From Paracoccaceae bacterium (GTDB taxonomy: Bacteria; Pseudomonadota; Alphaproteobacteria; Rhodobacterales; Rhodobacteraceae): DNA of 64,000 nt. The notes beneath the pieces are model-generated. The model was not told where the DNA came from. It did not search any database and saw nothing but the letters and a program-made list of their open reading frames with translations. The position numbers were made by a program, and so were the translations under genes. Shown here one piece after another: positions 57,747 to 63,094 of this stretch. Position 1 is the first letter of the stretch, and the number at the start of each line of letters is the position of its first letter. The stretch spans positions 1 to 64,000 of the forward strand of contig JAFGTV010000053.1 of the NCBI GenBank assembly GCA_016938875.1. The letters are read 5' to 3'.

Positions 57747-58115
57747 GTCATCCCCTGCGGTCTGGGGCAAGGTGCCCCGCAGAGCACCGTCCATTTCATG
57801 TTTCACATCCCCGAGGCAGCCCGGAAACAAAGATATCCGTTGCATAGCCCCCAGCCCCGGATGGAACAAGGGTGGATCGCCAGGGCGCAGGAAACCTGAC
57901 CGCCCGGCGTTGGGTCGGGTTGGCATGGTTCGGCCGGGACGCGGGTTTTCGTGCCCGCACGTGCCCGGTTGAGGATGTTCGGCGCGCGCTGGCCACAGCC
58001 GGAGATGCGGCGCCGCACCAGTCTTCGAACCGAAAAGGCGGGCCAGGCCGACATGGCCCCGACCCGCCCCTGGACCACTGCCCCGCCCATCAACCGGGCG
58101 GGGCAGGTGGCCACC
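57747..58115. other. Gene-free stretch, 369 bp
   Basis: Between the ribonuclease D-like gene and the repeat-protein gene. It holds the likely promoter of the rnd-kdsD-lpt operon, which I cannot place, and near its right end the hairpin at 58078. Frames open here are short and have no recognisable product. Confidence 0.6.
58078..58106 (-). terminator. GC-rich terminator hairpin of the repeat-protein gene
   Basis: An 11-base perfect stem (58078-58088 with 58096-58106) with a seven-base loop, nine bases after the stop codon. No T-run, so it may also be an mRNA 3' stabiliser. Confidence 0.65.
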
Positions 58116-58541
58116 TTACTTTTGAACTTCGCCGGTCACGATCTGGCGGAAAAACTTGCTGATCGGATCGCTGGCCGGGGCACGGCCGCCGCCGGTTGCG
58201 GGGCTGGCGGGGCTGGCGGGGCTGTCGCTGAGCAAGGGGATGTTCAGCATCGAGGAGAGGGGCGTCGGGTTGTCGGTCGACAGCGTGACGTTGGACCCAG
58301 AGGCGCTGAGCAGGGGCCAGTTCATCCGGCTGGAAAACGGCGTCTGATCGACCGATTCCAGATCGACCCGGGTCGCCTTGCGGTCTGACAGGGTGGGCCA
58401 GTTCAACAGATCCGAAAACGGCGTCGGGCTGTCGGTTTTCAAATCGAATGCCGGCTTGCGCGTGCTGAGAAGCGGCCAGTTCATCCGGCTGGACAGCGGC
58501 GTGGGGGTGTCGGTCAAAAGGTCTTTGCTGTTGTCGGTCAT
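58116..58541 (-). CDS. Four-repeat Pro/Ser/Asn-Trp protein, unknown function
   Basis: A 141-aa protein that I do not recognise. It contains four copies of about 26 residues, starting near residues 11, 37, 64 and 90, with consensus DxPTP(L/F)SSxxNWPLLS followed by a variable linker. Copy 4 has NIP instead of NWP. A Ser/Pro/Ala-rich linker and a short basic/aromatic tail (SDPISKFFRQIVTGEVQK) follow. There is no signal peptide, membrane segment or Cys, so it is probably cytoplasmic. The ATG at 58541 has AGGAAAG upstream. Copies 1 and 3 share an identical 20-base block, which points to recent duplication. Transcribed away from the crotonase gene. Confidence 0.8.
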   Translation of the reverse strand: MTDNSKDLLTDTPTPLSSRMNWPLLSTRKPAFDLKTDSPTPFSDLLNWPTLSDRKATRVDLESVDQTPFSSRMNWPLLSASGSNVTLSTDNPTPLSSMLNIPLLSDSPASPASPATGGGRAPASDPISKFFRQIVTGEVQK

Positions 58542-58737
58542 CGCGGTCTTTCCTTTGGAGTGACAGTTATCGCCTCTATGTCCTTGAACTGGGCGATGAT
58601 GCGCCTGCGGCAAGGCCAAGTGATAATCTTGTGATCGGCAGCCAGCGATCATCTGCTGACGCGGTGGCCCGGCTTGGCAACCTGGTTTGTCCCGGCTAAG
58701 CCTGCACAGTATGACCGTCGCCTGCGAGGACACCGCC

Positions 58738-59739: not shown

Positions 59740-60594
59740 TCACCTGGCATGCTGCGCGGTCGTGGCGCCGGTTCCCAGCTCGATGATTTCGGCGGTGATT
59801 TCCTCTTGGCGGACGCGGCGCAGGGTGGCCTGGAACTGCTCAAGCTCGCGGTCGATCTGGCTGCCCGCGGCGGACATGGCCTCCATCCTGGCCTCGTTTT
59901 CGGCGGCAAAGGCATGCAGGGCGGCCTTGCACACCAGGGCATGAACGTAATCCCCGCTGAGACTGGCGATCAGGGCATCGTCGGGCAACTGCGTCAAGGG
60001 GCGCGTCGGCGTGGGCGGCGGCAGGTCTGACAAATCGATGGGCAGCAGCACCTGCCGCTCGATCCGCGGCTGCCCGAATGCCCAACCCGCATGGACCACA
60101 TCCAGCCGTTCAAATCGGCCCTCGTCCAGGGCACGGTAGATCGCCTTGGCGATGCCATCGGCCAGCTTCGGAATGGCGGGCGTGTGCGAGGCCATCGCCG
60201 CGGACCAGACCGGCTCCAGACCCCGCGCCGCAGCGATCGAGAGACCGCGGGTGCCGATCAGAAACAGATCGGCTATCGCCAGATCCTCTTCGATGCTGTC
60301 CAAAACGCGTTCGCTGAATGCACCGGCAAATCCCTGTTCAGCGCAGAACACCAGAAAGCCGGTTTTTCCCGTCTTGGCGACCTCTTCAGCCTTGGGGGCC
60401 GGCATGGTTTCAGCGGGGCCAAGCACATTGGACATGGCGACGGCCATGGTTGCGGCATAGCTGTCGATCGCCTCGATCTGGGCGCGGGCGGTGCGGGCAC
60501 GGGCGGCGGCGATACCCTTCATCGCGTTCACCACGGCGCCCAACTGGCGGATGCCGTCGATCCGGGCGCTGACATCGGCAAGCCGCTCGGTCAT
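59740..60594 (-). CDS. atpG: N-ATPase gamma subunit
   Basis: Central stalk of the second F-type ATP synthase. A 284-aa protein with N-terminal helix ([20 protein letters not shown]) and C-terminal helix ([19 protein letters not shown]) of gamma subunits. Weakly similar in the middle to ordinary AtpG. Overlaps atpA by four bases. Last gene of the operon; the order A-G with no D or epsilon after it is that of N-ATPases. Confidence 0.9.
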
Positions 60595-62114
60595 GGCGCG
60601 GGCTCTGCCGGGGTCAGCGACGCGGCAAGTCGGGACATCGCGTCCATCAGGGTGGCCCGCGCGTCGGCGTCCAGCGCGCCGGTGTCGTCAATCGCGCGCA
60701 TGACCTCGGGCACATCGCGGTCCAGCGCCGTCGGCAGGTCCGTGCGGAACGCGGTGACGGCCTCTAGTGGCAGGGGATCCAGCAGGCCCGATTGCACCGC
60801 CAGCAACAGCGCCACCTCGTCGGTCAGGCGCAGCGGCGCATGCTGGGGCTGGCGCAGGACCGCCCGGATACGTTCCCCGCGTTTCAACTGGTCGCGCACG
60901 CGGCCCTCGGGCATGCCGCCGAACCGGGTGAACACCTCCAGCTCCAGGAACTGGGCATAATCCAGCCGCAAGGTTCCCGCCGCCGCGCGCAACACCGGGG
61001 CCTGGGTCTTGCCGCCCACCCGGCTGACGCTCAGCCCGACATCGATGGCGGGTTTCTGGCCCTGATGGAACAGCGCGGCATCCAGCACGATCTGCCCGTC
61101 GGTGATCGAGATCAGATTGGTCGGAATATAGGCCGACAAGTTCCCCGCATCGGTTTCGGCAATCGGCAGCGCGGTCAATGACCCGCCGCCGCGCGCCTTT
61201 GACAGCTTGGCGGCGCGTTCCAGCAGGCGGGCATGGATATAAAACACATCGCCCGGATAGGCCTCGCGCCCCGGCGACTGACGGGTCAGCAGGGCAATCT
61301 CGCGGTGGGTGGCGGCGTGTTTGGACAGATCGTCGATGACGATCAGCGCATGCTGGCCCTTGTCGCGGAAATATTCCGCCATGGTCATCCCGGCATAGGG
61401 CGCGATCCATTGCAGCCCAGGCGCGCTGGCAGATCCGGCGACCAGCACGATGCAGCGATCAAACGCGCCCTGTGCCTGCAACGCGTCGATGGCACGGCGG
61501 ACGCTGGATGTCTTTTGCCCGATGGCGACATAGACACAGATCATCTCGCTGTCGCGCTGGGCGATCACCGCGTCGATGGCCAGCGTCGTCTTGCCGGTGG
61601 AATGGTCGCCCACGATCAACTCGCGCTGGCCGCGACCCAGGGCAAAAAGCGTGTCCAGCGCGACCATCCCTGTTTGCACCGGCTCGGTCACCAAATCGCG
61701 TTCGATGATCGAGGGGGCCGGGCGTTCGACCGGCAGATGGGTGTCGGTTTCAATCGCGCCTTTGCCATCCAGCGGGCGACCCAGCGGGTCCACGATCCGC
61801 CCCAACAGCGTCTCGCCAACAGGCACCTGGACGACCTCGCCCGTGCCAAAGACCGCATCGCCCGCCTCGACATCGGTCGCGGCATCCAGCAGCACGCAGC
61901 CGATCAGGTCGGGGTCCAGCACCCGTGCAAACCCGACCTGGCCGCCCTGAAAGCGCAGCACCTCGTCCAGCCGCACATCGCGCAGCCCCGAGATGATCGC
62001 CACGCCGTCGCCGATTTCCTCGACCACACCGCGGTGTTCGGCCCGTGGGCCCAAGCTGGCACTGCGCACTGCGTCGCGCGCGCTGTCCAGCCAGTCGGGT
62101 GCGTCAGGCGGCAT
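60591..62114 (-). CDS. atpA: N-ATPase alpha subunit
   Basis: Catalytic-hexamer alpha subunit, 507 aa. Walker [10 protein letters not shown] at 169-177 (ordinary AtpA has GDRQTGKT), [40 protein letters not shown] and the C-terminal domain are present. The divergent Walker A and the overall gene order point to an N-ATPase alpha subunit and not the housekeeping one. Overlaps atpF by 11 bases and atpG by four. Confidence 0.93.
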
Positions 62115-62841
62115 CCTTCATCTCCTTCAGGATCCGCGCCAGGTCCGCCTGCCAGGAATTGCGCAGAACGAAATGCGCGCTGCGCAGTTCCAGCCCGGCG
62201 ATCAGCTCGGGATCGCCGACAAGGTGCAGGTCCGCCGCGCCGCCCAATGCGTCCGCCACGGCCTTTTCGATCCTTGTTTTTTCCGCCTCATCGGGGACGG
62301 TTGCGGCGACAATCTCGATCCGGGTGGCCGCGCTGGCCAGCGCCGCGCGGTCGGACGCGGACATCTTTGCGATGGCGTCTATCAGCAGGTCGAGAAACGC
62401 CGCCTGAACGGCGGGCGTGTTCATCTTTGCCAAGAGTCGCGTGGCAATCTCTACCGACAGCGCAGAGGCCTGTGCGGCATTCTGCTTGCGCGCGGCCTCG
62501 GTCTCGCGCGCGATGGTGGTTTGCGCGGCGGCCATCAGGGCGTCGGCCTTTTGCTGGGCCTGTGCCAACGCGGTTTTCCGGGCGGCGTCGGCCATCGCCT
62601 TGGCCTCGGCCAGGATGGCCTCGCGCTCTGCCGCGATGCCGGCACGGGTGTTGGTGACCTCGGCCAGGGCTGCATCGGCCTTGTCCTGCGCCGCCTTGCC
62701 CGCGTCCAGCATGCTTTGCGCGGCGGCCTGACGGCGGGCAATGGCCCCGGCGACCGGACGCCAGAAGATCCGGGCCAGAAGCCAGATCAGGATCAGGACG
62801 TTGACCGCCTGTAGCCCCAGCCCCCACCAGTCGATCGTCAT
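62104..62841 (-). CDS. atpF: N-ATPase b subunit (elongated)
   Basis: Peripheral stalk subunit. One N-terminal membrane helix ([15 protein letters not shown]) and a long charged Ala/Gln-rich coiled coil. At 245 aa it is much longer than an ordinary b subunit (about 160); the extra C-terminal part ([32 protein letters not shown]) resembles the delta subunit, which has no separate gene in this operon. I infer that it replaces delta. Start at 62841 (MTIDWWG). Confidence 0.88.
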
Positions 62842-62845
62842 CGGA

Positions 62846-63094
62846 TCATCCCAGCAACGGGTTGGCAAAGAGCAGCAACAGCGCGATCACCAGGCAGTAG
62901 ATCGCCGTCGTCTCGATCATCGCGAGCCCGACGAAGAGCGTGCGCGAGATCGTATTCCCGGCCTCGGGCTGGCGGGCGATCGCATCCATGGCGGCGGCGA
63001 CGGCGCGCCCTTCGGCCAGCGCCGGTCCGATCGCGCCGAACGAAACGGCGAAGGCCGCGCTTACGATGCTGGCAATAGCAATAAAGTCCATCAT
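62846..63094 (-). CDS. atpE: N-ATPase c subunit
   Basis: Rotor ring proteolipid of 82 aa, two membrane helices. Ion-binding Glu61 is in GLAMIETTAIYCLVIALL, followed by Thr62-Thr63 and Tyr66, which resemble the Na+-type ES-T-x2-Y site. The position of Gln32 of Ilyobacter c is Glu28 (GPALAEGRAV), giving two carboxylates near the site. This arrangement has been described in N-ATPases. ARQPEA forms the polar loop. ATG at 63094 overlaps atpB by four bases; the next ATG has better ribosome-binding spacing. Confidence 0.92.
   Translation of the reverse strand: MMDFIAIASIVSAAFAVSFGAIGPALAEGRAVAAAMDAIARQPEAGNTISRTLFVGLAMIETTAIYCLVIALLLLFANPLLG

Follow-up and report, generated by a model that had tools for sequence, protein, structure and literature searches.

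The window, that is, the whole 64,000-nt stretch analysed, contains on its minus strand a gene encoding a 141-aa protein in which a short motif is repeated four times. This protein was placed in subfamily A of a family found in Rhodovulum, the grouping into A, B, C and D types having been made by eye. The features recognised at the locus are as follows.

58548..58556, minus strand: Shine-Dalgarno-like AAAGGAAAG, seen in the sequence 6 nt 5′ of the ATG
58116..58541, minus strand: coding sequence of the 141-aa repeat protein, from its translation and from A-type relatives (n = 8, 51-62% identity)
58464..58511, minus strand: repeat unit 1, residues 11-26, DTPTPLSSRMNWPLLS, from the motif position, with coordinates derived from the frame
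58386..58433, minus strand: repeat unit 2, residues 37-52, DSPTPFSDLLNWPTLS, from the motif position
58305..58352, minus strand: repeat unit 3, residues 64-79, VDQTPFSSRMNWPLLS, from the motif position; contains a 20-base block identical to one in unit 1
58227..58274, minus strand: repeat unit 4, residues 90-105, DNPTPLSSMLNIPLLS, from the motif position
58119..58169, minus strand: conserved C-terminal tail, residues 125-141, DPISKFFRQIVTGEVQK, a predicted short helix
58071..58113, minus strand: GC-rich hairpin (inverted repeat) immediately 3′ of the stop codon and lacking a T run; a possible terminator

The motif TP[LF]S.[RLM][ML]N[WI]P[LT]LS occurs at residues 14, 40, 67 and 93, at spacings of 26, 27 and 26 residues. 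A looser form of it is also present in four copies; when the residues were shuffled 20,000 times, 84 shuffles contained one copy and none contained two. The original prediction, made from the letters of the DNA, had described four DxPTP(L/F)SSxxNWPLLS-like units spaced by ~26 residues, and both the frame and the motif positions agree with it, as do the DNA repeats near 58317, 58398 and 58476 (the fourth copy begins near 58242) and the 20-base block common to copies 1 and 3. NWPLLS as such, which had been attributed to every copy, is found in copies 1 and 3, while copy 2 reads NWPTLS and copy 4 NIPLLS. Each unit bears a Ser (S17, S43, S70 and S96), and the S70 column is invariant across the 31 rows of alignment A1. 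The ribosome-binding site, a GC3 of 0.85 and the dN/dS values of 0.29-0.50 obtained for the A-type pairs computed (n = 4) speak for a real, selected gene. A scan for promoters and terminators around the gene returned none; the hairpin that follows it has a fold of -40.7 kcal/mol (positions 58050-58118; z -2.42).

As had been predicted, no known domain was recognised: Pfam gave no family at E 1, and the single NCBIfam match, to the BcsR/BcsP cellulose proteins (NF040718; E 0.16), was rejected at 11.5 bits against a cut-off of 55. The AlphaFold2 model of the protein, made with an eight-sequence alignment, has a mean pLDDT of 49.7 and a pTM of 0.14, and consists of short helices at the TPLSS stretches plus one C-terminal helix, with nothing else. 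This last helix, the only one longer than five residues in the low-confidence model, corresponds to the conserved tail, in which 10 of the final 12 residues are invariant in the eight-row A-type alignment; subfamily B proteins end in a similar tail. Such values fit the proposal that the repeated core is a multivalent short binding motif and not a folded domain and, since the model is unfolded, it does not predict the bound form of the protein.

The window gene lies outside the puc operon. Its neighbours are an RNase D-like gene (rnd, assigned by eye) and an enoyl-CoA hydratase family gene (ech); the adjoining genes are not photosynthesis genes. When both neighbours were used as tblastn queries against eight A-type loci, no enoyl-CoA hydratase match and only two RNase D-like matches (26-28% identity) were obtained. 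The pair is therefore not kept at these loci, and the window-type gene has no fixed neighbours. Beyond ech, the frames at 59740-63094 of the window resemble, by eye, the alpha, gamma, b and c subunits of ATP synthase, in a layout that we take to recall the N-type Na+-translocating ATPase.

Homologues with conserved repeats, on whose existence the original prediction had staked itself beforehand, are present in relatives and keep the motif. Each of the 16 Rhodovulum genomes searched (that of the window and 15 congeners) contained two to four matches; in the window genome, four copies reached E 3e-5 or better and a fifth match (E 0.026) had an internal stop. Of 85 genomes outside the genus, two gave matches, both of them weak (E about 0.005) and interrupted by internal stops. 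Several paralogues of differing length occur per Rhodovulum. Among the nine A-type proteins read, window protein included, eight have four units at spacings of 26, 27 or 28, and 26; the ninth, from R. robiginosum, has five. A four-unit array common to eight of nine A-type proteins is older than the species, and the recent duplication that had been suggested is not supported.

In each of the five C-type regions of at least 12 kb that were read (G000, which is the window genome, G003, G005, G013 and G015), the C-type gene and pucC are neighbours in divergent orientation. LHC genes between the C-type gene and pucC were confirmed in G000, and pucA was recognised there by eye in G013. A TGT-N12-ACA site, which we take to be the PpsR/CrtJ consensus, is found 226-250 nt upstream of five of six C genes (0.25 expected); no such box was found upstream of the A (n = 9), B (n = 14) or D (n = 2) genes, the window gene included. 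One reading of this division is that the dispersed A, B and D proteins were recruited to another protein via the same motif, only C staying an LH2 protein. The lack of the box would suit this, as would the absence of shared puc-side neighbours for A and the constraint on A, which is the weakest among the pairs computed (dN/dS up to 0.50). The core motif, however, is nearly identical in the A, B and C types when aligned, and such a recruitment seems unlikely. The reading preferred here keeps the window protein within a family that would bind LH2.

Some Rhodovulum loci show further peculiarities. The C-type and a D-type gene of G003 (L045:4933-5376 and L045:13074-13499) share a contig, separated by ~8 kb, in the vicinity of pucC. 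The ~110 nt upstream of the B-type genes read (n = 14; L002, L014, L016-L020, L023, L025-L028, L030 and L040) are strikingly alike throughout the genus, running GACGCGGCGAAAAATCACCTTGCCC ... GGTGGACAGGATCAA ... AGGTGGATC and then ATG; close to the ribosome-binding site GGTGGA is doubled. This stretch may combine a promoter with a site of translational control. Three B-type proteins (L019, L020 and L040) have a second, N-terminal tandem repeat of ~10 residues (TNPQVETKTF-like), and two NWPLLS-type units in place of three.

When the genome collection was scanned with two A-type peptide patterns, 28 loci were obtained: 21 in Rhodovulum, four in Rhodopila and three in Granulosicoccus. All seven non-Rhodovulum genomes contain LHC genes (eight to ten in Rhodopila; four, four and two in Granulosicoccus), and in their proteins the repeats come after a part with a weak YflT match. 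Two of the Granulosicoccus loci show the order pucB, pucA, repeat gene, pucC, with PucC assigned by Pfam. No puc genes were seen within the 12-kb loci around the Rhodopila repeat gene; Rhodopila globiformis is reported to make LH2 (PMC9640540). In all ten alphaproteobacterial positives besides G000, the repeat gene lay 92-521 nt from an LHC gene, with pucC at 242-680 nt in seven and at 1.5-4.0 kb in three; the member from one of these ten, G156, has only one clear unit. Three neighbouring small ORFs that were tested were LHC by Pfam. A sample of 398 genomes from the phylum yielded five matches at E 1e-9 or better, namely G000 and four genomes in which the gene adjoins a pucC-like ORF.

Rhodobacteraceae were surveyed with one genome per genus (n = 198), and an LH2 alpha match was found in 25 of them with a single query, by which a divergent alpha could be missed. 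Of the 26 puc regions fetched, 24 contained pucC, and in 20 the next ORF on the same strand encoded a protein with the YflT part and more or less clear repeats. With start codons picked by eye, ten of these 20 genes show a 4-nt overlap with pucC; for the other ten the distance is -13 to +87 nt. Several of the proteins have ~25-residue units, RMANWPIPLLSRRKP..., that recall the RMNWPLLSTRKP of the window protein. In three genera, the pucC-linked protein has 349 aa and nine ~25-residue units (L200:4163-5209, L202:3815-4861 and L210:3755-4801), which is the subunit number of the LH2 nonamer; this count was made with an ad hoc pattern that found all units in L200 and L210 and eight in L202, the ninth being added by eye. 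Further family matches away from the fetched puc region were noted at G016:C2:460263-460808 and G943:C43:1142-2161.

A profile of 14 Rhodobacteraceae pucC-linked proteins (A6), used at E 1e-20, matched 22 of the 198 genomes: 21 of the 24 LH2 genomes besides G000, and one of the 173 without detected LH2. Its rows are 14 of the 20 proteins from these same genomes, so their recovery is by construction; it is the genomes without LH2 that are informative. The single positive among the latter, G885 (L225; G885:C3:41000-50000), has a pucC truncated by a stop, followed by a repeat gene split over two frames, and therefore looks like a decayed puc locus. A 23rd match, in G820, had an E of 7e-5 and covered positions 1-72 only; the window genome's own copies were not found by the A6 search. 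Three LH2-bearing Rhodobacteraceae (G814, G851 and G871) lack the family gene, and the puc regions of G814 and G851 presumably resemble that of Cereibacter sphaeroides.

Profile comparisons joined these groups to one another. The 31 Rhodovulum proteins of A1 aligned with seven YflT-repeat proteins (A3) over the repeats (hhalign, 98.7%, E 1.7e-16), A3 with A6 over the YflT part (99.3%), and A1 with A6 over 36 columns, or about one unit (93.3%). The match between the Rhodovulum proteins and the three nine-unit proteins alone was weak (hhalign 24%; BLASTP E 6e-4). The A3 profile matched the window gene at E 1.2e-10, only from profile position 142 on; on the basis of such alignments, the window protein can be taken as homologous in its repeat core to the puc-linked proteins. 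Members outside Rhodovulum start with a part of ~100 residues that is, in some, weakly YflT-like (Pfam PF11181; best E 9.7e-5 and 2.5e-4, both under the gathering score), and proteins with the YflT part only are also present in genomes without PucC. This part is absent from the window protein, for which neither a Pfam match nor an A3 match before position 142 was obtained, and was probably lost in Rhodovulum. No tested member scored above the cut-off of any Pfam or NCBIfam family, three members used as queries gave no matches among plasmids, and no description of the family was found in the open-access literature searched (most subscription journals lie outside it, and an older description under PucD/PucE is possible).

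The distribution of the family was then compared with that of PucC and LH2 in 385 alphaproteobacterial genomes, 27 of which contain PucC (PF03209, E 1e-60). The family (A3 profile, E 1e-9 or better; four of the seven rows of A3 come from the same 385 genomes) was present in 11 of the 27 PucC-positive genomes and in none of the 358 PucC-negative ones (Fisher p 2e-14). Sixteen further genomes gave A3 matches between 5.9e-8 and 1e-3, none of which extended past profile position 136, and no two-unit frame was found in the nine of these whose locus was examined. The presence of at least four LHC genes, as in 11 of the 27 PucC genomes, was read as LH1 plus LH2; the other 16 have two. The family occurs in 10 of the former 11 and in one of the latter 16 (p 1.4e-5). 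The exceptions are G159, a family-positive genome with two LHC genes that is 84% complete and in 640 contigs, and G188, which has at least four LHC genes and no such gene between pucBA and pucC. Given that no copy was detected in G188 (one of 11) or in G814, G851 and G871 (three of 24 Rhodobacteraceae), the family is not required for LH2.

The original prediction had proposed a scaffold or decoy for a binding partner that it did not name, and the LH2 antenna is suggested as that partner both by the gene neighbourhood of the family and by its co-occurrence pattern. No support was found for a decoy. A scaffold or decoy unrelated to photosynthesis might be suggested by the neighbours of the window gene, but the family tracks PucC and LH2, which makes that reading highly improbable.

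The spacing of the units differs among members. By autocorrelation, the strongest lags were 53 and 26 in the window protein, and 26, or 53 followed by 26, in Rhodovulum proteins (n = 4). Lags of 25-26 were the strongest in 14 of 20 Rhodobacteraceae proteins, 15 in two and others in four. In the YflT-type proteins, 16 or 32 came first in six of 11 and other lags in five; a lag of 16 ranked fifth or higher in 10 of them. As 16 and 26 are mixed in some proteins (L062), the unit is read as a core of 15-16 residues plus an optional linker of ~10 residues. The number of units varies from about two to nine and is mostly unequal to the LH2 ring size. The YflT-type unit counts, having been made with a pattern that requires Ser at one position, are no proof of Ser conservation, the evidence for which is in alignments A1 and A3.

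The sole solved analogue found is the gamma polypeptide of Rhodopseudomonas palustris LH2 (RPA1495; PDB 7ZCU, 7ZDI, 7ZE3 and 7ZE8). It is reported to contain six 16-residue units, each with a Ser that ligates one bacteriochlorophyll, and to run as an extended ribbon on the cytoplasmic side round six of the nine alpha-beta pairs, its pigments being 27.6 Å apart on average; according to its authors, it is found only in Rhodopseudomonas (PMC9618040). Its gene (PMC9618040) is three locus tags away from pucBAe (RPA1491/1492; PMC5069747). Like gamma, the family has short tandem units with a Ser in each, and a pitch of 16 recurs in several YflT-type members; the window protein shares the regular spacing of short units, at 26, 27 and 26 rather than 16. 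A position near the LH2 genes, as for gamma, is seen in the family and in its C paralogue, but not for the window gene. The solved gamma chain, at 97 residues, is too short for a YflT-like part plus six units. Presence in LH2 has been shown for gamma only.

Comparison of the family with gamma by hhalign gave 1.2%, that is, no profile similarity, and PDB searches with the P0001, A1, L073 and L062 proteins found no gamma chain. With gamma as the query, nine of 27 phototroph genomes gave one match each at E 1. The best of these, at E 0.0065 (for one genome) and 29% identity over 87 aa, fell inside a G307 family member (L111) in a 16-residue register, and one of 400 column-permuted gamma controls scored as high as the real one; the remaining eight matches were not in family genes, and none was in the window genome. 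When such controls were run for 13 proteins, at most 15 of 400 scored at or above the real value in six and 32 to 292 did so in seven, the window protein giving 32; in a second run, on 20 proteins, the figures were at most eight in three and 16 to 350 in 17. Most members thus do not score clearly above the controls. Sequence homology to gamma is suggestive for one relative (L111) and is not claimed for the family, the likeness proposed being functional. A second comparison is offered by Rhodobacter capsulatus, in which PucD and PucE (the latter an LH2-associated gamma polypeptide) are encoded in the same place as the family gene, downstream of pucC. The cluster there is given as pucBACDE (PMC9231093). 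No close match to the R. capsulatus PucA was found in 265 Rhodobacteraceae genomes.

On balance, we lean towards the view that the window protein is a member of an LH2-antenna-linked repeat family that binds the LH2 ring as an extended ribbon. On the precedent of gamma (16-residue units, a ribbon, a gene near pucBAe), the family is proposed to lie along the ring with one unit per alpha-beta pair. Each core of ~16 residues, x-x-P-T-P-L-S-S-x-x-[GN]-[WL]-P-L-L-S, would contact one such pair at the cytoplasmic membrane surface; the cores, joined directly or via the ~10-residue linker, would follow one another along the ring in a gamma-like manner, and the conserved Ser may hold an extra bacteriochlorophyll. 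Alternatively, the ribbon may simply brace the ring during or after its PucC-dependent assembly. In Rhodovulum, the repeats would have become spread over several short genes, one of them still beside pucC, and the window gene, with its four units and conserved C-terminal tail, would be one of the dispersed copies and may still act on LH2.

PucC itself is described as an LH2 assembly factor (PMC4949548), and the family might instead act with it transiently, collecting nascent alpha and beta chains or pigment, and not be a subunit of the finished ring. The fact that PucC assembles LH2 is in keeping with this, as are the direct coupling of the gene to pucC in Rhodobacteraceae, with 4-nt overlaps in half of the 20 loci, and the YflT-like N-terminal part of the non-Rhodovulum members. 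Evenly spaced units, however, which in several members have the pitch of gamma, are suited to the regular surface of a ring, and the Rhodovulum copies manage without the extra domain; a purely transient role is accordingly judged doubtful, though it merits serious weight. A good deal less probable is a clustering role, in which a single chain would link several LH2 rings through its separate units, or LH2 with RC-LH1, and thereby set the supramolecular packing of the photosynthetic membrane. Multivalency, the ~10-residue linkers and the differing lengths of the Rhodovulum paralogues could be accommodated by such clustering, but linker-free pitches of 15-16 residues are short for bridging separate rings.

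The gamma ribbon has so far been reported from one genus only. If the family works in a gamma-like manner, an additional LH2 component, encoded alongside the puc genes, would be common among LH2-bearing Alphaproteobacteria, and this would bear directly on how LH2 ring size and the number of B800 pigments are set, and on PucC-dependent assembly. A more speculative version, which we think rather unlikely, is that the LH2 rings of many purple bacteria bear an overlooked repeat belt. Having one unit for each alpha-beta pair, it would add or position monomeric bacteriochlorophylls and may act as a ruler of ring size; the nine-unit proteins would match the LH2 nonamer, and the short proteins of Rhodovulum could tile the ring in different combinations and so tune B800 absorption.
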